DNA from: Candidatus Thalassarchaeum betae | GTDB lineage: Archaea > Thermoplasmatota > Poseidoniia > Poseidoniales > Thalassarchaeaceae | Assembly (NCBI GenBank): GCA_003193925.1 | Contig: PSPG01000002.1 | Coordinates: 41,258 to 105,257, forward strand | DNA: 64,000 nucleotides | Reading direction: 5' to 3' | Shown here: one piece after another, positions 36,221 through 48,572 of the stretch | How positions within the stretch are numbered: position 1 is the stretch's first letter | How the letters are laid out: every line of letters starts with the position of its first letter | Position numbers and translations under genes: made by a program | Notes under the pieces: generated by a model | Told to the model about the DNA's origin: nothing | The model's input: the letters and a program-made list of their open reading frames with translations, nothing else | Database searches by the model: none

Positions 36221-39200
36221 ATGGTAGCGTGTGCTTCGTCTGGAGACCCGTCACGGCTGCGTGAAGCAGCCCTTGGCGTCGCGCTGATGCTGCTGATGTC
36301 ATTGTCTCCTGTACTCATGCAGTTCGATGCCCACGTCCGGATGCAGACCGGGGACGGCACCCAGAGCCCATGGTCCGACGGTGGTCAGCCATGGCCGCAG
36401 TCGGGCAGGACGCCGGGCAGGGTAGCGGATGTCCCGGCGCACAGCCCTGACGGGGGTGCTGGCAACGGTACGCCGGCCGACGCGGCTGAACTGATGTCGA
36501 TAGTCGAGCCAGCGGTGAACTGGGTCTACGGCTCGTACTCCATCAGCACAGACGCGCTGGCCACCCCGATTGCGGACCTGTCTGCATCGGTGACCAAGGA
36601 CGAGGCGGCTGCCGAGCGCTGCGGTGGCAGTTCACTGTTCACCATCCTAGTCCAGACCGATTCCAATTCGGATCACACATTCCTCAGGATCGTCGAGGGC
36701 GAGGATGCCGACCTCGCTTGGTCGGTCGACTTGGGTTTGACCGAGTACGTGAAGGCTGCCCCCGTAGTAGTCGACGTCGATGGCGACGGGATGCAGGAGG
36801 TCCTCGTCGCATACGACGCCTCTGGAACCCTCTACCTCGACGCCTGGGCTCCTAGGCTGACCTGCTCGGTCACGGGATGGTCCCCTGGAGGGCATGGGGG
36901 AGAATTACTGTGGTCTTGGAGCGACGAGTCCCTGATGATTAGCAGTAATCAAGGGCCTTACTCGAGCAGCGCCCTCGGGGGGCACAAGCCGACAACCCAG
37001 CCCCTCCTCGCCGATCTGGACCTAGACGGGGATGCCGAAATTGTAATTGCCGCCATAGACGAGGTCTCCGGGGAACCGGTCGTGGTCGCCCTAGGGCTGT
37101 CCGAAAGCGGGGCCACCCTGCTTTGGGACGCTGCATTGGACAAGGGCAGTCACCCCTCTGACCCGGCCTTCGCACAGACCGATGATACGACGGGGTACGT
37201 GCTCCTGACGACGACCCAGCACAACAGTGGAGCCATGTGGGTTTGGAAGTTGGACTCAGCGAGCGGCGATTCCAGTTGGGACGGGCTGTCCCTGACGAAC
37301 TCCGATGGCGACACGGACGCCCCGCACATCAGGCTACCCGGGCCCGTGATAGCTAATCTCGACAGCGACTCAGCTCCTGAGATGGTGCTCACGATACCGA
37401 CGGACTTCGACGGCTCAGGCTCTGTCGACGGGGCGGAGTTCATCGGAATGGAGATTGGCAACGGCGACGTGCTCTGGGACTTCGAGGCATCGAACGGCTA
37501 CGCCGACGCCCCTCCTGTGGTGATTGACACCGATGGAGACGGTCAGCACGACAGGGTGTGCTGGGTGACTTGGTCCCAGGAGACCACATGGGCCAGACAT
37601 GGCCATGCCGGCTGTCACGACGTGAGTGGTTCCAGCCCGGATCAGGCCTGGCAGAAGAGCCTTGAGCAGAGCAGCGGCTATCCGAACGACGAGATAGCCG
37701 TCGCCCCCCCGACATGGATGGACATAGACGGCAACGGCGAGCAGGAGCTACTGGTCGCCTACGGCCGCTCGCTGTGGGCCTTCGACGGTGACGATGGCTC
37801 GACTTTCGTTTGGGGTGGATCCATCGATCTGCCCCATAGGACTTGGTCCGCCCCCGCCCTGGCTGACATGGACGGAGGTGCGACTCTCGATCTGGTTCTC
37901 GGTGACACGGTCGTGTCGCACGCCCTGGCTGATGTCAGGCCCCTGCTGGACCAAAGGGGCATCGAGTTCAGCCCCAGCGAGCCCGATCCCGGCGAGGCTG
38001 TCACCGTGACTGCGCTGTTCGAGAACTCGGGGACTGCCGACACTGATGATGAGACCGAGGCCAAGCTGTATGCGAACGGCCAGCTGATAGCCAGCTACGA
38101 GGCAGGCACCATGGAGCCAGTTGGCCCAACCGGCGGGGGCTCCTTCGAGTCATTCAGCGTAGAGTGGAGTGGGCCGCTGGGCGAGCACGTCTTCGAACTG
38201 GTCCTCGACCCCTACTCCAACGTCTCTCAATCAAGGCGCGACAACGACGCCCAGACCACCACGCTAGCTATCGTGGCACCCTACAACGCGACTTTCGAGA
38301 TACCTACCGAGCCAATCAGGGTAACTCCCGGGGAAAGCGCGCTGGCGGCCCCTAACATCCGCTCGACGGGCAGGCTTGCAGGAACCTGGAGTCTTGCCGT
38401 GGACGACTCTTCGCTACCTGGAGGCTGGACTTGGAGCGACGAGTCTGGCGGGGGCCTGAGCGGAATCGAGATAGACGTCGATGCGGTATGGGCCCCCCAT
38501 CTCCGCATTCATGCCCCAGCTGACGCCTTGGGCTCGGATGCCGGTCACCTCGGCCTCACTCTGACTCTGGACGACGACCCGGACAACGTCAGTGTGTCGG
38601 CTTCCCTCCCCATCGAGGCCAACCGGACCCGTGGACTATCCCTGCGTGGACCCGATGGAACCGCTGCGAGCACCGGTTACGGCCTGCTGGGCGCCGACGC
38701 ACAGGCTTGGATGCTGCTCCAAAACCTCGGTAACGCCCCTGAGAACCAGATTACGATTTCGTGGAGCGGCACCGCATGGGGCACGGATCTCAGACTGTAC
38801 GACATGGCTGGTATCGAGCAGCCGGCACTGTCTCTAGCACCAGATGAGGTGCTGCTTCTGACAGCGAGGATGGAAGTCCCGGATGATGCTAATCTGGGCG
38901 ACTCTGTGGCCACTCCTCTGTCTATGTGCGTAGGCAGTGGAGAGGAAGAGACCTGTCAGACGATCTCACTCACCTTCGAAGCGGCGGGGGTCGTGACAGA
39001 TGTCCACCAACGCAGCGTACCTGCGCAGGGTTTGGAGTGGGCCGTCCACGCTGATATGCCCATCGGGGCGATGCAACTTACCTGGTCGCTCGCCGACGCT
39101 GGGATGACCGTACAGGGATGGTCCTGGAGCGCGAGTGGTAACCTGTCGATTGCCGGTGACACGGTCATCATGACAGGGGCAATCGGTTCCCAGGCCTTCG

Positions 39201-41812
39201 GGACCCTGACCCTCGGCCTACCCGATGACTCCCCTCCGGCCTTCCACTCCTTCTCTGACGCGAGCGACCAATCGGCTAATCACGTCCTCAGGGTCTCTCT
39301 CGAAGTCCTGCAGATATACAGGGCCTCGCTATTGGTGATCTCGCCCACGGAGCAACCTCACTTGGTCGAGGTCAATGAGGAGTCTCTGGTCATGGTCCGC
39401 CTCGAGAATCCTGGCAACGGCGACGACACTTACCACTTGACTTACGAAATCCTCCTCGACGAGAACATCACCGAGGACCCGGGTGTGGGGGTTGCCTTCT
39501 CCAATGACATGGTGTCCTTGGGCGCAGGTAGTCTGACGAACATACCTGTGACCGTTGTACTACCTGACACCACCCCTGCTCGTGCCCCCGTCAGTATCGA
39601 AATCCACATGACCTCGATGGGAGACCAGTCAGTCAGTGACTCGGACGTCGTGATCCTCGAGGCTAGTCAGGACCACCGATGGAACATCACTGCGAGCGTC
39701 GGTGAGTCCATCGCCGATGGAAACACCTTCGCCGTCGCACCCGGAGGAACTCTGGAGGTGAGCGTCGAAGCGAAGAATGTCGGTAATCTGATCGATGACC
39801 TGACTCTGACAGTGAGTTACGAGGTTACCTTGGCGGGCGATGACGCCTCACAAGGCTGGGACTCCCAAGGAGATACAGTGGTCGACATCGGAGTGAACCA
39901 GACTGCACTGATGACGGTCAACGCGACCGTGCCTGCAGACGCTTGGAACGGCTCTACAATGCAAGTAACCGTCACCGCCACTGCTCAGGATGAGGAGGTG
40001 GGTTCGTTCACTTTCGGCATCGAGGTGACTCATGTGCCAGCTTGGTCGGCCTCGGCAGACCAGACCTACCTCGATATACACCCCAATGGCTCAAGCATAG
40101 AACTGACCGTGATTCAGCAAGGCAACTCCCCCACGATGCCATATGCTACAGTGTGGGTGAGCGGTGAGAGCGGTTGGCATATTGTCGTCTCCGACGAACT
40201 CCCTGTCCTTTCCCCCGGTGAGACTGCTCCGATGATGCTCAACATCACCCCGCCTGACACAGCGCAGCATGGCAGGGCAGTGGAACTCCACGTCAAACTA
40301 AGGGAAGGCGACGGTAGCGGAGAGACAGAAATCACTCTGCCTCTGCGTGTCGCCATCATCAACGACTTCAATCTGAGCGGGCAGGGGCCTTGGTTCATCT
40401 CTGGCGATGGGGGTCACCCAATCGCGGAACTTCAGAACCTCGGTAACGCCCCCACTACCATCGCCCTGCAGGTCCTGAGCCTGCCTAGCGGCTGGATTGT
40501 CGTCGGGCAGACCGAAGTCGTCCTCGGGGTCGGTGAGATTAGAGGTGTTCCCCTGGAGGTGATTCCGTCTGCTGACTGGGACGGCAGCGCCCAGACCGTA
40601 CGCATCCTCGCCGAGGATGCAGACGGGAACCAGCGCGAGGTCTCCCTGAACACCGAGCAATCGTCGTACTCCTGGGCATCTTCCCCCGTGATAGTGGTAA
40701 TGATGGGTGACCATGCGCTGCTTCAGATCCACGGCACCACCTCTGCTTCCAGTGTCGTTGATTCCGTGTCCGGACAGTTGCAATGGGACGATAGGGGCGG
40801 TTGGGCGTTGCCGGCAGTGGCCAGTGGGAATGGCTCCTTGAGCGTGGACTCATCCAGCCTCGACTACGTCTCCCACGTCGTCGAGCCGTCCCTCAGGTCT
40901 GCTGAGTGCGAGATTCTCGGCAGTTTCGAAGAGGTAGTCGCATATTGCTCTATATTCAACGGGACGGAGCCGTTCTCATACTCGATTCTCCTAATCGACG
41001 ACCAGGGGGCGATGCTGAATTTCGCGTCCGGTCACGTCCCTGCCAACTCCCCCCACGGCCCGATCAACCTCAGTGCCGAGGGCTGGAGTCCGGAGCCGGG
41101 CAGCAGGACCCTGACGCTGAGACTGCTAGATGAGAGGGGTTTCCAAGTCGCTTTTGATGAGGCTAGCTTCCAAGTCAGAAGGAGCGACTGGAACATAGGC
41201 GTAGTGGAACTAGAGCTTGACGGGGAGGGCTCAAACCAGGAAGTCAAGGTCCTCACTCGAAGGACCAATTACCAACTACTGACTGATGCCGACTGCCATC
41301 TCTCGCTAGTCGCAGGGGAGCATTCCTCAACCCACCGAGTGGATTGGAGCAGCACATTGGCCCCCATCTTCAGAATTGACCGTCCCGATGTCGATGATGG
41401 CATCGAAATCGTCGTGACTATCGGGTGCGAGTTCCCCTGGGACTCAGATTCCGACCCGAGCGACGACGAGGCCAGACTGATTCTCTCGGGCGGCTCTATG
41501 GAGCTCCCGGAGTTCGACATGGGGACCGCAGTAGTTGCAGCCCTGCTGGTGATCGGTGCATCTGTGGCCTTCGCGTGGATGCTCAGAAACTACCGCGAGG
41601 GCAAGGAGCTCATGGAGATGGCCATGGCGACGGCAGAGGAGAGGGCAGCCAAGAAGAGTATCGAGCCAAAGGCCCCTGACACTCCTGAGCCGGTGGCTGA
41701 AACACAGGACGAAGGCATCAGCGAAGATGCTGCTGAACCGGAGTCCGAAGTCGAGGAGGGGGCGTTGGACGACTTCGAGGACAGGCTCGGGCGCCTGATG
41801 CGAGAAGACTAG
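36221..41812 (+). CDS. Giant surface protein with FG-GAP propeller, CARDB and C-terminal anchor
   Basis: 1,863 aa from ATG 36221. The N-terminal hydrophobic stretch LGVALMLLMSLSPVLM is a likely signal peptide. Roughly residues 180-560 hold six FG-GAP-like blades with calcium-loop motifs: DVDGDGMQEVLVAY, DLDLDGDAEIVIA, NLDSDSAPEMVL, DTDGDGQHDRV, DIDGNGEQELLVAY and DMDGGATLDLVLG. This suggests an integrin-alpha-like beta-propeller. A CARDB module follows (EPDPGEAVTVTALFENSG), then many Ig-like/NEW3-like beta-sandwiches. A single membrane helix (VVAALLVIGASVAFAWML) near the C-terminus precedes an acidic cytoplasmic tail. Likely a long cell-surface receptor or adhesin. Own promoter at 36171. Confidence 0.9.
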   Translation: MVACASSGDPSRLREAALGVALMLLMSLSPVLMQFDAHVRMQTGDGTQSPWSDGGQPWPQSGRTPGRVADVPAHSPDGGAGNGTPADAAELMSIVEPAVNWVYGSYSISTDALATPIADLSASVTKDEAAAERCGGSSLFTILVQTDSNSDHTFLRIVEGEDADLAWSVDLGLTEYVKAAPVVVDVDGDGMQEVLVAYDASGTLYLDAWAPRLTCSVTGWSPGGHGGELLWSWSDESLMISSNQGPYSSSALGGHKPTTQPLLADLDLDGDAEIVIAAIDEVSGEPVVVALGLSESGATLLWDAALDKGSHPSDPAFAQTDDTTGYVLLTTTQHNSGAMWVWKLDSASGDSSWDGLSLTNSDGDTDAPHIRLPGPVIANLDSDSAPEMVLTIPTDFDGSGSVDGAEFIGMEIGNGDVLWDFEASNGYADAPPVVIDTDGDGQHDRVCWVTWSQETTWARHGHAGCHDVSGSSPDQAWQKSLEQSSGYPNDEIAVAPPTWMDIDGNGEQELLVAYGRSLWAFDGDDGSTFVWGGSIDLPHRTWSAPALADMDGGATLDLVLGDTVVSHALADVRPLLDQRGIEFSPSEPDPGEAVTVTALFENSGTADTDDETEAKLYANGQLIASYEAGTMEPVGPTGGGSFESFSVEWSGPLGEHVFELVLDPYSNVSQSRRDNDAQTTTLAIVAPYNATFEIPTEPIRVTPGESALAAPNIRSTGRLAGTWSLAVDDSSLPGGWTWSDESGGGLSGIEIDVDAVWAPHLRIHAPADALGSDAGHLGLTLTLDDDPDNVSVSASLPIEANRTRGLSLRGPDGTAASTGYGLLGADAQAWMLLQNLGNAPENQITISWSGTAWGTDLRLYDMAGIEQPALSLAPDEVLLLTARMEVPDDANLGDSVATPLSMCVGSGEEETCQTISLTFEAAGVVTDVHQRSVPAQGLEWAVHADMPIGAMQLTWSLADAGMTVQGWSWSASGNLSIAGDTVIMTGAIGSQAFGTLTLGLPDDSPPAFHSFSDASDQSANHVLRVSLEVLQIYRASLLVISPTEQPHLVEVNEESLVMVRLENPGNGDDTYHLTYEILLDENITEDPGVGVAFSNDMVSLGAGSLTNIPVTVVLPDTTPARAPVSIEIHMTSMGDQSVSDSDVVILEASQDHRWNITASVGESIADGNTFAVAPGGTLEVSVEAKNVGNLIDDLTLTVSYEVTLAGDDASQGWDSQGDTVVDIGVNQTALMTVNATVPADAWNGSTMQVTVTATAQDEEVGSFTFGIEVTHVPAWSASADQTYLDIHPNGSSIELTVIQQGNSPTMPYATVWVSGESGWHIVVSDELPVLSPGETAPMMLNITPPDTAQHGRAVELHVKLREGDGSGETEITLPLRVAIINDFNLSGQGPWFISGDGGHPIAELQNLGNAPTTIALQVLSLPSGWIVVGQTEVVLGVGEIRGVPLEVIPSADWDGSAQTVRILAEDADGNQREVSLNTEQSSYSWASSPVIVVMMGDHALLQIHGTTSASSVVDSVSGQLQWDDRGGWALPAVASGNGSLSVDSSSLDYVSHVVEPSLRSAECEILGSFEEVVAYCSIFNGTEPFSYSILLIDDQGAMLNFASGHVPANSPHGPINLSAEGWSPEPGSRTLTLRLLDERGFQVAFDEASFQVRRSDWNIGVVELELDGEGSNQEVKVLTRRTNYQLLTDADCHLSLVAGEHSSTHRVDWSSTLAPIFRIDRPDVDDGIEIVVTIGCEFPWDSDSDPSDDEARLILSGGSMELPEFDMGTAVVAALLVIGASVAFAWMLRNYREGKELMEMAMATAEERAAKKSIEPKAPDTPEPVAETQDEGISEDAAEPESEVEEGALDDFEDRLGRLMRED

Positions 41813-44427: not shown

Positions 44428-45408
44428 TCAGTTCCTCCTGACCAGTAGGATTACTATGAGGACTGACAGGAGCGCGATCGCTATCCAGCGCTGATCGAAG
44501 TCGCTCTGTACCCCTTCATCGTTAGACAGGAACAAATCTTGGGCAGTGTCCAGATGAGGAGACTCGGTCGAGGCCATCAGCACGATGCCCTCTATGTGGT
44601 ATGGGACCCCTCCCCTCATTCCCTTGGAAACCGCCTTTGAATTCGTGATTGAGGCCATTACGAAGTCACAGGTGTCGGCCCTCCTGAGATTCTCGATGGC
44701 CTCGAACTCGCCGCCGCTGTCCAATGGTCTGAAAGGAATTTGCACCTCATAGTGACTCTCCATCCTACTGACGACCATCTTGGAAATCTCGACCTCGTAG
44801 CCCTGCATTTCGGCATTGTCGTCTAGGTTCGACATCGGAGAGTCCTGATTATACATACAGGCCACCAATTCCTTCTCGCCCTCTAAGATACGATAGAGTG
44901 TGCCGCCCTCGGTCGGAGTCGGCCAAGCACCAATGACACTGACGAAATCGGAATCTTTCAGCTCGGTCTCACCGAGGAACCACGTCAGGTACGCCTGCTG
45001 GCCGGTGCTTGAGGAGAATATCCCCCCGAGAGCGGCGTTGATGGCCTGCAGTAACTCTAGGTTGCCCCAGTCGTCTTGAGTGTCGGATCGGGCCACCGGA
45101 ACGTACGATTCGGTCTCCTCGACCATACCGAGGATGGAGAGTCCCGGCAGATTGGCCCTGTTAGCCGGATCGGCGGCGATCAGATTGGATGTCAGCATGA
45201 AGTCGATCTCACCGACCATAAGGGCGCGCATCGCGAACTGATGGTCCTCGTAGCCGGTCTCGATTATGTGCTCGTAAGAGTCGATGAGATGTGATGCGGG
45301 AGTCTCCTGAGAAGTTCCGACGTTGTACTGCAATCCACCTGCTGCAACGGCGGGTGGCGCGGATAGAACCAATGCGCTGAGGCAGAGTGCGACCAATACG
45401 CCCCTCAT
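44428..45408 (-). CDS. Amino-acid ABC transporter substrate-binding protein, C-terminally anchored
   Basis: 326 aa from ATG 45408. Signal peptide MRGVLVALCLSALVLSAPP followed by a binding domain of periplasmic type II fold (family-3-like: EIDFMLTSNLIAA, then GYEVEISKMVVSRMESHYEV and CDFVMASITNSKAVSKGM, typical of polar amino-acid receptors). The order looks circularly permuted or divergent compared with bacterial HisJ-like proteins, since the GYEVEIS segment comes late. The C-terminus is a membrane helix (WIAIALLSVLIVILLV) and RRN, so the receptor is tethered at its C-terminal end. Divergent from the permease gene with a shared TATA region. Confidence 0.82.
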   Translation of the reverse strand: MRGVLVALCLSALVLSAPPAVAAGGLQYNVGTSQETPASHLIDSYEHIIETGYEDHQFAMRALMVGEIDFMLTSNLIAADPANRANLPGLSILGMVEETESYVPVARSDTQDDWGNLELLQAINAALGGIFSSSTGQQAYLTWFLGETELKDSDFVSVIGAWPTPTEGGTLYRILEGEKELVACMYNQDSPMSNLDDNAEMQGYEVEISKMVVSRMESHYEVQIPFRPLDSGGEFEAIENLRRADTCDFVMASITNSKAVSKGMRGGVPYHIEGIVLMASTESPHLDTAQDLFLSNDEGVQSDFDQRWIAIALLSVLIVILLVRRN

Positions 45409-45453
45409 GCCCGCGAGGGCCCGCAGGGCCGACTTAGCATTGGTGGTCCACGA

Positions 45454-45464
45454 GACTATATCCG
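45454..45464. promoter_or_regulatory. Shared box A for the divergent transporter genes
   Basis: GACTATATCCG in the 86-bp gap. On the plus strand RNA would start near 45482 (13 nt before TTG 45495). On the minus strand it would start near 45433 (about 25 nt before ATG 45408). One element could serve both genes. Confidence 0.5.
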
Positions 45465-45494
45465 AAGAAGCGCGTCAGGGGGCGAGGGTTCGCG

Positions 45495-47819
45495 TTGTCC
45501 GGTGGTATCTCACGACTGCTCCACCCAACGGGGAAAAGTGGCAACCGCTACGTCGTCATCCTCTCCTTCTTGATTCTAGCAACCCTGATCACTCCCATCC
45601 AGGGAGTCGAGTACAGAAGCGGTTGGGATGTCGCTGACAGTGGCACCGATGCGGATCTTTTCACGGCGTCCTACGATGGTGAGTCGGTCTTCGCCTTCGG
45701 TGCTGGCGGCGTGATTCTCCAGAGCGACGACAAGGGTTCTACCTGGGTTCAGCTCAGCTCCCCTGCGACGGCCGACCTGCGCAGGTCCGACTCAACAGAA
45801 GCAGTCTACGACCCATTCACAGGCGATTTGAGGGAGAAGGGAGCATTTGCGGTCGTCGGTGACGGTGGGGCGGCCTATCTCCTAGCCGTTGGCAGCGATA
45901 CATGGCAGAACATCTCCTTAGAATCCGCCGTTGACTTCAGAGGGGTTGCGATGACCAGCGCTACCTCATTGGTGACCGTAGGACCGAGCGGGGCTATCTG
46001 GCAGTACCAGAGCGAGGCTTGGACGCAGAGAGACTCCGGAATTGCCTCGGATCTCAATGACATCTCCTTCCTCGATGGCAGCTCGGGCTTTGCAGTGGGT
46101 GACAATGGCATGATACTGGCCACCGATGACGGCGGACAGAACTGGGAGTACAGAGAGGCTCCCGAAGGGCTGGTCGCTAACATTGTGGCAGTCGACTACT
46201 ACAGCGCCATTCGTGCCTATGCGATAACAGACGAAGGGCACATAGTCAAGTCAGTCGGAACGCCCACTGGCACTGCTGTCGGGTTTGTCTGGGAACTGGT
46301 CGAGATCGAGTCGGAGGGCAGGAACACCAGCCTGGGACTCGAACTGAGCTCGATCGACGTATCGTCTGTGAACAAGTTCCTCGTCGCCGGTCCCTCTGGA
46401 TACGTCGCTCTGTCTCTTGACGGCGGCAACATCATCATCCCCCAAATGAACCCCCTGCCTAACGTCACGGACTTCAATCACGTCTCGACGCTCAACCTGT
46501 TCGATGCTGTGCTCGTGGGTGACGGTGGCGTCATCCTGTACAGCGAAAATGCGGGAGAGGACGAGTCCATCGGGTTCCAGGTCGTCGACTTCAGTGACTT
46601 CGGCCAGTTCGTCGACTACTCCAAAGGCATGCTGATGGACGGATTAATCGCCACTATCAAAATCGTCGTATTCGGCATCATGCTGGGTTTTTTCCTAGGA
46701 ATCACGCTCTCGATGATGAAAACCGCTCCGACCACCCTGAAGGAAATTGCACAACTCAATCGCTATGCGTTGGTTAGGCTCTTGCTGCTCCCAATCTGCG
46801 CAATTGAGGCGGTCACGATTGGTTTGGTGAATGGGCCGATGCCCGCAACTCGAGAGGCGGGAAGATTGCGTACGCTGTCCGCGACTTCCACGGGGCCCCT
46901 CAACACCGTAGCCCTGCGGGTATTCGGATTGGGAATGCTAGGCTACGGGACGAAACTGCTTCTCGCTGTAGTCCCCGTAGTCAGGGCCCTCAACCTAGAC
47001 GGTTGGGATTACATCTACGCGCCTATAGGCATCATAAACCCGGAAGGCGTCACTGGACCGATAAGTTTCGTGCCCTTTCTCAGGGTCCTCTTAGGGATAG
47101 CGCTGATCCTCCTGGGCCTGCTATTCATGACCTCGAAGGAATCATTCCCCAAGAGAGAGGTACGTCTGCCATTCCGTGGCATCACGGTGAAGTGGAATCC
47201 CTGGGGTGTGAGGCCGCTGAACGCTGTCGCGACCGTATACACCGACATCTTCCGCAACACCCCTCTGCTCGTACAGTTCTTGTTCATCCACTTCGGGCTC
47301 CAACTGGGCAAGCTGGTTCAGGGGCCCGCGGAGGCGATGCTAGCGGGTTCCACCAGTTTCTTGGCAGAATTCATCATTGACGAATTCCTGAGTGACAGGG
47401 CCTACATCAGCGCCATCTTCGCCCTCGGCCTCAATTCTGGCGCATACCAGTGCGAGACCATACGTGGGGCCATCGCGGCGATTCCCTCTGGCCAGATGGA
47501 GGCAGGCAGGAGCATCGGACTGAACTACATGCAGACAATGAGGCGCGTCATCATGCCGCAGGCAATCAGGATCTGTATACCGCCCATGGGTAACGAGATG
47601 GTCAACCTCGTGCTCAACTCGTCGCTCGCCATGGTCATTGGCTATGCCGAACTGACACGAAAGGGCAAGCTGGCCATCGCTATTACCTGGCAGGTCTTCT
47701 GGGGTTGGGGCATGGTCCTGATCTCTTACTTCATCGTCACTTGGACACTGGCTCTTCTGCTCAGGTATCTCGAGAACAAGACGAGGATACCCGGACTCGG
47801 CATTTCAGGAGGTGCATGA
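45495..47819 (+). CDS. Amino-acid ABC permease fused to an extracellular beta-propeller
   Basis: 774 aa from TTG 45495, the only start in register with the promoter. Residues 20-37 form an N-terminal membrane helix or signal. Residues 40-360 are an exported BNR/YCF48-like beta-propeller with repeated VFAFGAGGVILQSDDKG-STW, AVGDNGMILATDDGGQNW and VGDGGVILYS blades. Residues 382-406 are the first permease helix. An unusual stretch of about 150 residues with further hydrophobic segments (426-447, 474-496, 528-545) precedes the conserved DIFRNTPLLVQFLF (584-597). The EAA loop of glutamate/glutamine-type permeases is at 650-690 (QMEAGRSIGLNYMQTMRR). Its TGA directly abuts the ATPase ATG. Confidence 0.9.
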   Translation: MSGGISRLLHPTGKSGNRYVVILSFLILATLITPIQGVEYRSGWDVADSGTDADLFTASYDGESVFAFGAGGVILQSDDKGSTWVQLSSPATADLRRSDSTEAVYDPFTGDLREKGAFAVVGDGGAAYLLAVGSDTWQNISLESAVDFRGVAMTSATSLVTVGPSGAIWQYQSEAWTQRDSGIASDLNDISFLDGSSGFAVGDNGMILATDDGGQNWEYREAPEGLVANIVAVDYYSAIRAYAITDEGHIVKSVGTPTGTAVGFVWELVEIESEGRNTSLGLELSSIDVSSVNKFLVAGPSGYVALSLDGGNIIIPQMNPLPNVTDFNHVSTLNLFDAVLVGDGGVILYSENAGEDESIGFQVVDFSDFGQFVDYSKGMLMDGLIATIKIVVFGIMLGFFLGITLSMMKTAPTTLKEIAQLNRYALVRLLLLPICAIEAVTIGLVNGPMPATREAGRLRTLSATSTGPLNTVALRVFGLGMLGYGTKLLLAVVPVVRALNLDGWDYIYAPIGIINPEGVTGPISFVPFLRVLLGIALILLGLLFMTSKESFPKREVRLPFRGITVKWNPWGVRPLNAVATVYTDIFRNTPLLVQFLFIHFGLQLGKLVQGPAEAMLAGSTSFLAEFIIDEFLSDRAYISAIFALGLNSGAYQCETIRGAIAAIPSGQMEAGRSIGLNYMQTMRRVIMPQAIRICIPPMGNEMVNLVLNSSLAMVIGYAELTRKGKLAIAITWQVFWGWGMVLISYFIVTWTLALLLRYLENKTRIPGLGISGGA

Positions 47820-48572
47820 ATGCCAGAGAATGTTTTGAGGGTCACTGATTTGCACAAGATCTACGCCGGAGGGGTCCATGCCGTCCGCGGCGTCTCGTTC
47901 GAGGTCAACGAAGGGGAGTCGGTGGCGATCATAGGTCCCTCAGGAGGCGGTAAGTCGACTGTGCTGCGATGCATCAACCGGCTGATTGAGCCAACCGAGG
48001 GAGTCGTGAGGCTGCGTGGCGAGCGGATCAACACCCCTGGAGCCGATGTCAACGACGTCAGGTCGAGAATCGGGATGGTATTCCAGTCATTCGAGTTGTT
48101 CGCGCACCTGAAGGTCCTCGACAACGTTACACTCGGCCTGAGGCATGTCAGGAAGATGAGCAAAGAAGAGGCCAAGGAAAGAGCTCTGTCGGTGCTCGAA
48201 CGCGTTGATCTTCTGGACAGGATCGATGCCTATCCTGGCAACCTCTCTGGCGGGCAGAAGCAGCGCGTGGCAATCGCCCGGGCTCTGGCGATGAGCCCTG
48301 AGGTCATGCTGTTCGACGAGCCGACCAGCGCCTTGGACCCCGAGCTGATGGGCTCGGTTCTGGCTACCATCAGGAGACTGGCTGACGAAGGAATGACGAT
48401 GGTGATTGTAACTCACGAAATCAGCTTCGCCGAGGACGTAGCTGACCGTATCATCTACCTAGATGAGGGCGTGATAGCCGAGCAGGGACCCTCCTCGATC
48501 ATTGAGGACCCGCAGAGCGAGCGGCTCAAGAGGTTCCTGTCCGCGATTAGCGAGGGGGAGGAATATCAGTGA
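47820..48572 (+). CDS. Polar amino-acid ABC transporter ATPase
   Basis: 250 aa from ATG 47820, immediately after the permease stop. Walker A GPSGGGKST at residues 39-47, a Q-loop in MVFQSFELFAHLKVLDNV, the signature LSGGQKQRVAIARAL, Walker B VMLFDEPTSALDPELMG and the H-loop in MVIVTHE. The pattern matches GlnQ/HisP/ArtP-type ATPases for polar amino acids. With the fused permease and the divergent anchored binding protein it forms a complete importer. Convergent with gdhA, whose product acts on glutamate, so glutamate or glutamine is a reasonable substrate guess. Confidence 0.93.
   Translation: MPENVLRVTDLHKIYAGGVHAVRGVSFEVNEGESVAIIGPSGGGKSTVLRCINRLIEPTEGVVRLRGERINTPGADVNDVRSRIGMVFQSFELFAHLKVLDNVTLGLRHVRKMSKEEAKERALSVLERVDLLDRIDAYPGNLSGGQKQRVAIARALAMSPEVMLFDEPTSALDPELMGSVLATIRRLADEGMTMVIVTHEISFAEDVADRIIYLDEGVIAEQGPSSIIEDPQSERLKRFLSAISEGEEYQ

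Follow-up and report, generated by a model that had tools for sequence, protein, structure and literature searches.

A YCF48-type β-propeller fused to a GlnP-type amino-acid permease in marine archaea, and its possible role as a docking scaffold for tethered receptors

Introduction

In the window (the 64,000-nucleotide stretch of Candidatus Thalassarchaeum betae DNA analysed here), one chain places a β-propeller ahead of an ABC permease of the amino-acid class. This arrangement poses two questions: whether the two domains are genuinely joined, and what a propeller would do on an amino-acid importer. The fusion is real and conserved; as to its role, we give about an even chance to a reading in which this polar-amino-acid ABC importer has a homodimeric permease and the resulting pair of propellers forms an extracytoplasmic scaffold docking tethered receptors.

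Domain organization of the propeller-permease

The chain is encoded by a single 774-residue open frame (45495-47819, plus strand) with a TTG start and no internal stops; its parts and those of its neighbours are collected in Table 1. In several relatives the signal segment closes with SQA or AQA, a signal-peptidase-like motif. Permeases of the HisQM/GlnP class begin outside, and this N-out topology together with the signal sequence strongly implies that the propeller is extracellular and makes a cytoplasmic propeller unlikely.

Table 1. Features of the propeller-permease locus and of the divergently encoded receptor (window positions).
Feature	Position	Strand	Residues and basis
Membrane-anchored permuted SBP_bac_3-type receptor	44428..45408	-	Pfam profile, model elements
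Receptor C-terminal transmembrane anchor	44434-44493	-	residues 306-325
Receptor lobe 1	44554-44916	-	residues 165-285
Receptor lobe 2	44959-45330	-	residues 27-150
Divergent intergenic region, 86 bp, common to receptor and permease genes	45409..45494	.	flanking frame coordinates
Signal sequence	45495..45608	+	residues 1-38; hydrophobic stretch 20-38 behind basic N-terminus
Seven-bladed YCF48/BNR-type β-propeller	45609..46592	+	residues 39-366; Pfam PF14870, AlphaFold2 strands, Foldseek
Linker and first permease helix	46593..46724	+	residues 367-410; invariant residues in 37 orthologues
Insert between permease helices 1 and 2	46725..47198	+	residues 411-568
Conserved two-helix core of insert	46899-47138	+	residues 469-548; all 37 MGIIb orthologues
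GlnP-type permease core with FRNTPLLVQ and EAA coupling loop (EAGRSIGLNYMQTMRRVIMPQ), plus stop	47199..47819	+	BPD_transp_1, TIGR01726
GlnQ-type ATPase (nucleotide-binding subunit)	47820..48572	+	directly behind permease stop; ABC_tran 128 bits (Pfam)

In Pfam, the propeller matches PSII_BNR/YCF48 (PF14870) with 45.9 bits against a cut-off of 27, and the permease matches BPD_transp_1 over residues 573-764 with 57.4 bits against 26.4; both domains thus exceed their cut-offs within one open frame, which bears out the sequence-only reading that propeller and GlnP-type permease share a chain. The permease also passes the amino-acid permease subfamily model TIGR01726 (57.1 against 42.2). GlnP and cystine permease are its best NCBIfam permease equivalogs, but the equivalog identities themselves (GlnP, HisM, ArtQ and others) are missed, the best being GlnP with 122 bits against a cut-off of 303. 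A permease of the polar amino acid (PAAT) class, GlnP-type, is therefore predicted, with amino acids as the likely cargo. The adjacent ATPase has GlnQ as its best NCBIfam match (283.8 bits), and a GlnQ-type ATPase adjoins the permease in 20 of the 20 loci first fetched. Since permease and ATPase are each encoded by a single gene, the transporter would comprise a homodimeric permease, two ATPases and hence two propellers. Canonical GlnP/HisM-type PAAT permeases (TC 3.A.1.3; TIGR01726, PF00528) have the same permease core, EAA loop, adjacent GlnQ-type ATPase and SBP_bac_3-class receptor; the relatives found in the phylum outside Poseidoniia are mostly about 230 residues long, too short for a propeller.

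Distribution and reality of the fusion

The propeller-permease occurs in 86 of 148 genomes of Ca. Thalassarchaeaceae (MGIIb), in six of 11 genera; almost all orthologues are single long open frames, a few being interrupted at contig ends. Five MGIII genomes, of a more distant family in the same class, encode a form of 606-619 residues. In the sister family f2, the 23 genomes searched at first gave no full match. The collection-wide scan of genome contigs relied on permease motifs only, and propeller-permeases elsewhere in bacteria may have been missed by it. An artefact in which a frameshift or an assembly error joins two genes is vanishingly improbable: genomes independent of one another, from different genera and from MGIII, share the same junction at about 30-75% identity, the intact orthologues exclude it, and misassembly is further contradicted by F369 and F372 at the junction, invariant in 37 of 37 aligned MGIIb proteins. 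Neither of the two dangers foreseen from the sequence, a false junction or an architecture absent from related genomes, has thus materialized. Six further residues of the linker and first helix (G383, T387, G398, F399, K409 and T410) are likewise invariant in these 37 orthologues, with mean identities of 53% for the linker and 69% for the first helix.

Extracytoplasmic additions to permeases have precedents. In SBP-permease fusions, of which GlnP of lactic acid bacteria is one, an extracytoplasmic domain likewise precedes the first permease helix; there, however, the added domain is a receptor, whereas here it is a propeller. The archaeal family f17 has frames of about 750-1280 residues, and the two that were read both look like receptor-permease fusions. 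Another parallel comes from Enterobacterales, where many PstC permeases are about 740-775 residues long. In the four that were read (L304:2009-4219, L305:1240-3453, L306:2099-4351, L307:653-2923), about 350 residues behind an N-terminal segment give weak, repeated WD40/β-propeller matches, all below curated cut-offs, and the permease contains an extra helical segment; judging from these matches, the ~350-residue region is probably a WD40-like propeller. In contrast to the archaeal protein, these chains are of the phosphate class, WD40-like rather than BNR-like, and carry the propeller behind an uncleaved-looking transmembrane segment, and the two architectures probably arose independently. The fusion had been put forward as one not previously recognised: no published description was found in the literature searched, coverage of which was incomplete, but the long PstC parallel makes a propeller joined to an ABC permease less novel as such. 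Its amino-acid class, YCF48 type and archaeal setting appear to be new.

A YCF48-like fold whose conserved residues are mostly fold-forming

The MGIII form scores 64.2 bits against PF14870. A full-length single-chain AlphaFold2 model, built from 37 orthologues, folds the propeller region into seven blades, mostly at pLDDT 80-93; the top Foldseek matches are YCF48 structures (5oj5, 2xbg and others) with TM 0.72-0.75 over the target, and confident sequence-search matches of the propeller are YCF48 proteins only. A chance propeller call is ruled out by the fold match. The permease half of the same model is of low confidence (pLDDT mostly 42-74); placing the propeller against the pore was dropped because of this uncertainty, and no contacts are claimed. 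YCF48/HCF136 is thus the best PDB match by sequence and by fold, with the same seven blades and the same Pfam family; yet it is a separate lumenal photosystem II assembly protein, whereas the window propeller is fused to a permease and falls far below the YCF48 equivalog cut-off (NCBIfam, 42.2 bits against 326). Blade 2 of the window propeller contains an insertion of about 13 residues (residues 102-117, about 45798-45845; the YDPFTGDLREKGA region) that is missing from the other aligned orthologues, the closest ones included.

Across the 37 orthologues, mean identity is 44% in the propeller against 76% in the permease core, which makes the propeller the faster-evolving part. The propeller residues kept in both MGIIb and MGIII are fold-forming W, G, F and I, together with P223 and S253, and S253 is the only polar propeller residue common to the two clades in the alignment. 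R220 and R240 are highly conserved within MGIIb and drop below threshold once MGIII is included; in YCF48, a conserved patch of six Arg residues is described (PMC10403576). An enzymatic propeller was rejected, as no catalytic-looking residue set is conserved across clades. Fast evolution combined with fold-forming conserved residues is more in keeping with a scaffold for binding proteins than with an enzyme or a site specific for a small molecule.

The same data bear on the idea that the propeller filters or presents peptides or surface polymers to the importer, the peptide version of which had been raised from the sequence. YCF48 binds a D1 peptide (5oj5, 5ojr) and MGII archaea are thought to be protein degraders (PMC9723583), but no peptidase is recognised beside the locus, the permease is of the amino-acid and not the peptide class, a separate Opp/Dpp-type system is present in the genome, and the cross-clade residues are fold-forming apart from the two just named. 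Peptide presentation is thus unsupported, and a capture of larger ligands in general is very unlikely.

A helical hairpin inserted in the permease

The extra stretch with hydrophobic segments noticed between the first permease helix and FRNTPLLVQ is confirmed; it measures about 160 residues in the window and varies in length among relatives. Its core, present in 37 of 37 MGIIb orthologues, is built from a pair of hydrophobic helices and a loop on the outside, L.LDG.[EW]YI[FY].P.G; further hydrophobic segments lie ahead of this hairpin in some MGIIb proteins, that of the window included, and behind it in a few. Because the number of helices is even, the hairpin leaves the topology unchanged. 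In the five MGIII proteins a short loop takes the place of the hairpin. Read most simply, the fusion with the propeller would be older and the hairpin a later addition in MGIIb, the MGIII form without insert being the older-looking one. Other MGIIb permeases, AapQ/AapM-like and 712-770 and 505-552 residues long, also contain many extra hydrophobic segments (L080:500-2638, L080:2635-4293, L079:3886-6198).

As a rival reading, the propeller could serve as an assembly or stability factor, as YCF48 does for photosystem II; it would protect or orient the permease's outer loops during synthesis or in the dimer, with no direct docking role. Its nearest fold, YCF48, is a binder of D1 lumenal loops (PMC10403576), and the MGIIb insert supplies a conserved outside loop beside the propeller that the propeller could hold. 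However, in MGIII proteins the propeller occurs with no insert, so that the insert loop is not the propeller's original target, and other GlnP permeases manage without such a factor; an assembly role is accordingly judged unlikely.

A circularly permuted receptor encoded divergently

The neighbouring frame on the opposite strand matches SBP_bac_3 with 38.1 bits against a cut-off of 26.4 (Pfam), profile positions 2-96 falling on receptor residues 182-285, while residues 27-150 resemble lobe 2, which indicates a circular permutation. The permutation was tested by searching native and rotated sequences against solved amino-acid receptors, with the better preserved MGIII orthologue as query. The native sequence aligns in two stretches of swapped order (query 4-114 on chain 119-233, query 148-261 on chain 10-117), and the rotated sequence in one stretch (12-239 on 10-233) with a higher score. 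The MGIII receptor thus departs from the canonical order of lobe 1 then lobe 2, and by alignment the window receptor has the same order. The break point lies at the lobe crossing (window 44428-45408, L238:5517-6485, L239:2771-3766, L242:6088-7059). Foldseek returned only weak type II matches for the receptor model (best E 6e-6, TM about 0.3), as expected for a permuted chain. In SBP_bac_3 receptors, the Arg of a T-x-x-R motif anchors the ligand carboxylate. Read from alignments, this Arg is absent in 17 of 17 window-type receptor orthologues, and the lobe-2 acidic residue is absent in most of them and present in two g11 proteins; both are retained in MGIII receptors and in LivK-like forms. A natural precedent is Tp0684 (MglB-2) of Treponema pallidum, also a circularly permuted, tethered ABC receptor (PMC4990184), but of the type I sugar class and with a different break point, whereas the window receptor is of the type II amino-acid class.

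Most g1 genomes encode the anchored receptor divergently at the locus, as do MGIII and some of the g9 and g11 genomes. Upstream lie genes for SAICAR synthase (purine synthesis) and an aminotransferase, in the window and at many loci, and downstream glutamate dehydrogenase is the next gene in the window and also at many loci. At g4, g6, g7 and many g9 loci, a purine-synthesis or other gene adjoins the permease instead and the receptor gene is gone, with propeller-permease and ATPase retained. The local receptor, lost in so many loci that keep the propeller, is therefore not a general docking partner, and the loss of its ligand Arg adds to the case that it is not the only one. Of the earlier proposal that the propeller docks the divergent receptor, docking itself thus stays plausible, and an exclusive partnership does not.

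These losses could also mean that the propeller has replaced the receptor, binding substrate and passing it to the permease, the divergent SBP having become dispensable and then degenerated or been lost. Such a replacement would explain the retention of propeller-permease and ATPase without a local SBP and the missing Arg in the surviving ones. It is quite improbable, however: S253 would be the sole conserved polar residue available to it, most of these genomes have an intact permuted SBP_bac_3 domain elsewhere, and Type I ABC importers normally depend on a clamshell receptor.

A LivK-like lipoprotein as a candidate second partner

In genomes whose locus has no receptor, SBP_bac_3 matches fall mainly on an AapJ-like protein of 404-550 residues and on a LivK-like lipoprotein of about 1050 residues. 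The latter carries a permuted SBP_bac_3 (profile 37-131, then 1-38) ahead of two Peripla_BP_6 domains and retains the TKTDER and LGDA motifs, both of which the window receptor has lost. A linker resembling VVLTDDTDANTATAYP is common to the LivK-like protein and the MGIII receptor, which suggests a common tandem ancestor. The LivK-SBP_bac_3 domain is found in 70 of 86 genomes with the propeller-permease against 7 of 62 without it, the Fisher p of about 3e-18 being descriptive only because the genomes are related and not independent. This co-occurrence may reflect shared ancestry instead of a working partnership. Genomes G036 and G070 have a LivK-SBP_bac_3 protein and belong to genera without the propeller-permease; for g10, also without it, the LivK matches listed cover the Peripla_BP_6 part alone.

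The window's own genome encodes such a lipoprotein of 1051 residues (contig C7, L119:6886-10041), its SBP_bac_3 permuted at a break point other than that of the divergent receptor, and next to it lies a 1298-residue permease with two BPD_transp_2 matches. Two other large frames were noted in passing: an 894-residue one (L122:3-2684) with a canonical-order SBP_bac_3 amid LDL-receptor-A-like repeats (CDNGEEIPASW.NDGE.DC.DGSDE), and a 1863-residue protein (window 36221-41812) that matches CARDB, FG-GAP and Ig-like models and is probably a large protein of the cell surface.

A possible docking scaffold

In the docking model, the signal sequence would export the propeller to the outer face, the first permease helix would enter the membrane from the outer side, as it does in GlnP and HisM, and the MGIIb hairpin would have been added ahead of the second helix with the topology kept. 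The propellers would dock membrane-tethered receptors and hold them above the translocation pore; their original partner would be the divergent gene's anchored, circularly permuted SBP, with the permuted SBP_bac_3 module of the LivK-like lipoprotein as a probable second one in MGIIb. The faster-evolving propeller with its fold-forming conserved residues, the adjacency of the ATPase, the co-occurrence of the LivK-like protein and the glutamate dehydrogenase neighbour are all consistent with this. Its main rivals are the assembly-factor role and the replacement of the receptor. AztD is likewise a β-propeller. An extracytoplasmic precedent for action on an ABC receptor is offered by this protein, which hands zinc to AztC, the binding protein of an ABC system (PMC6689063).

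It is conceivable, though rather doubtful, that the propeller freed the importer from a dedicated receptor altogether, either by binding substrate itself or by acting as an adaptor for receptors of other transporters, such as the SBP_bac_3 module of the LivK-like protein. If the adaptor version were true, one surface lipoprotein would feed two different ABC importers.

Concluding remarks

The long PstC parallel suggests that ABC importers acquired propellers on more than one occasion. MGII archaea abound in the surface ocean, and genes for receptors of amino-acid transport (livK, aapJ) rank with the most highly transcribed in MGIIb (PMC9723583). For archaea without an outer membrane, a propeller-fused permease with a tethered, permuted receptor would offer a concrete and testable design for keeping receptors near their importers.
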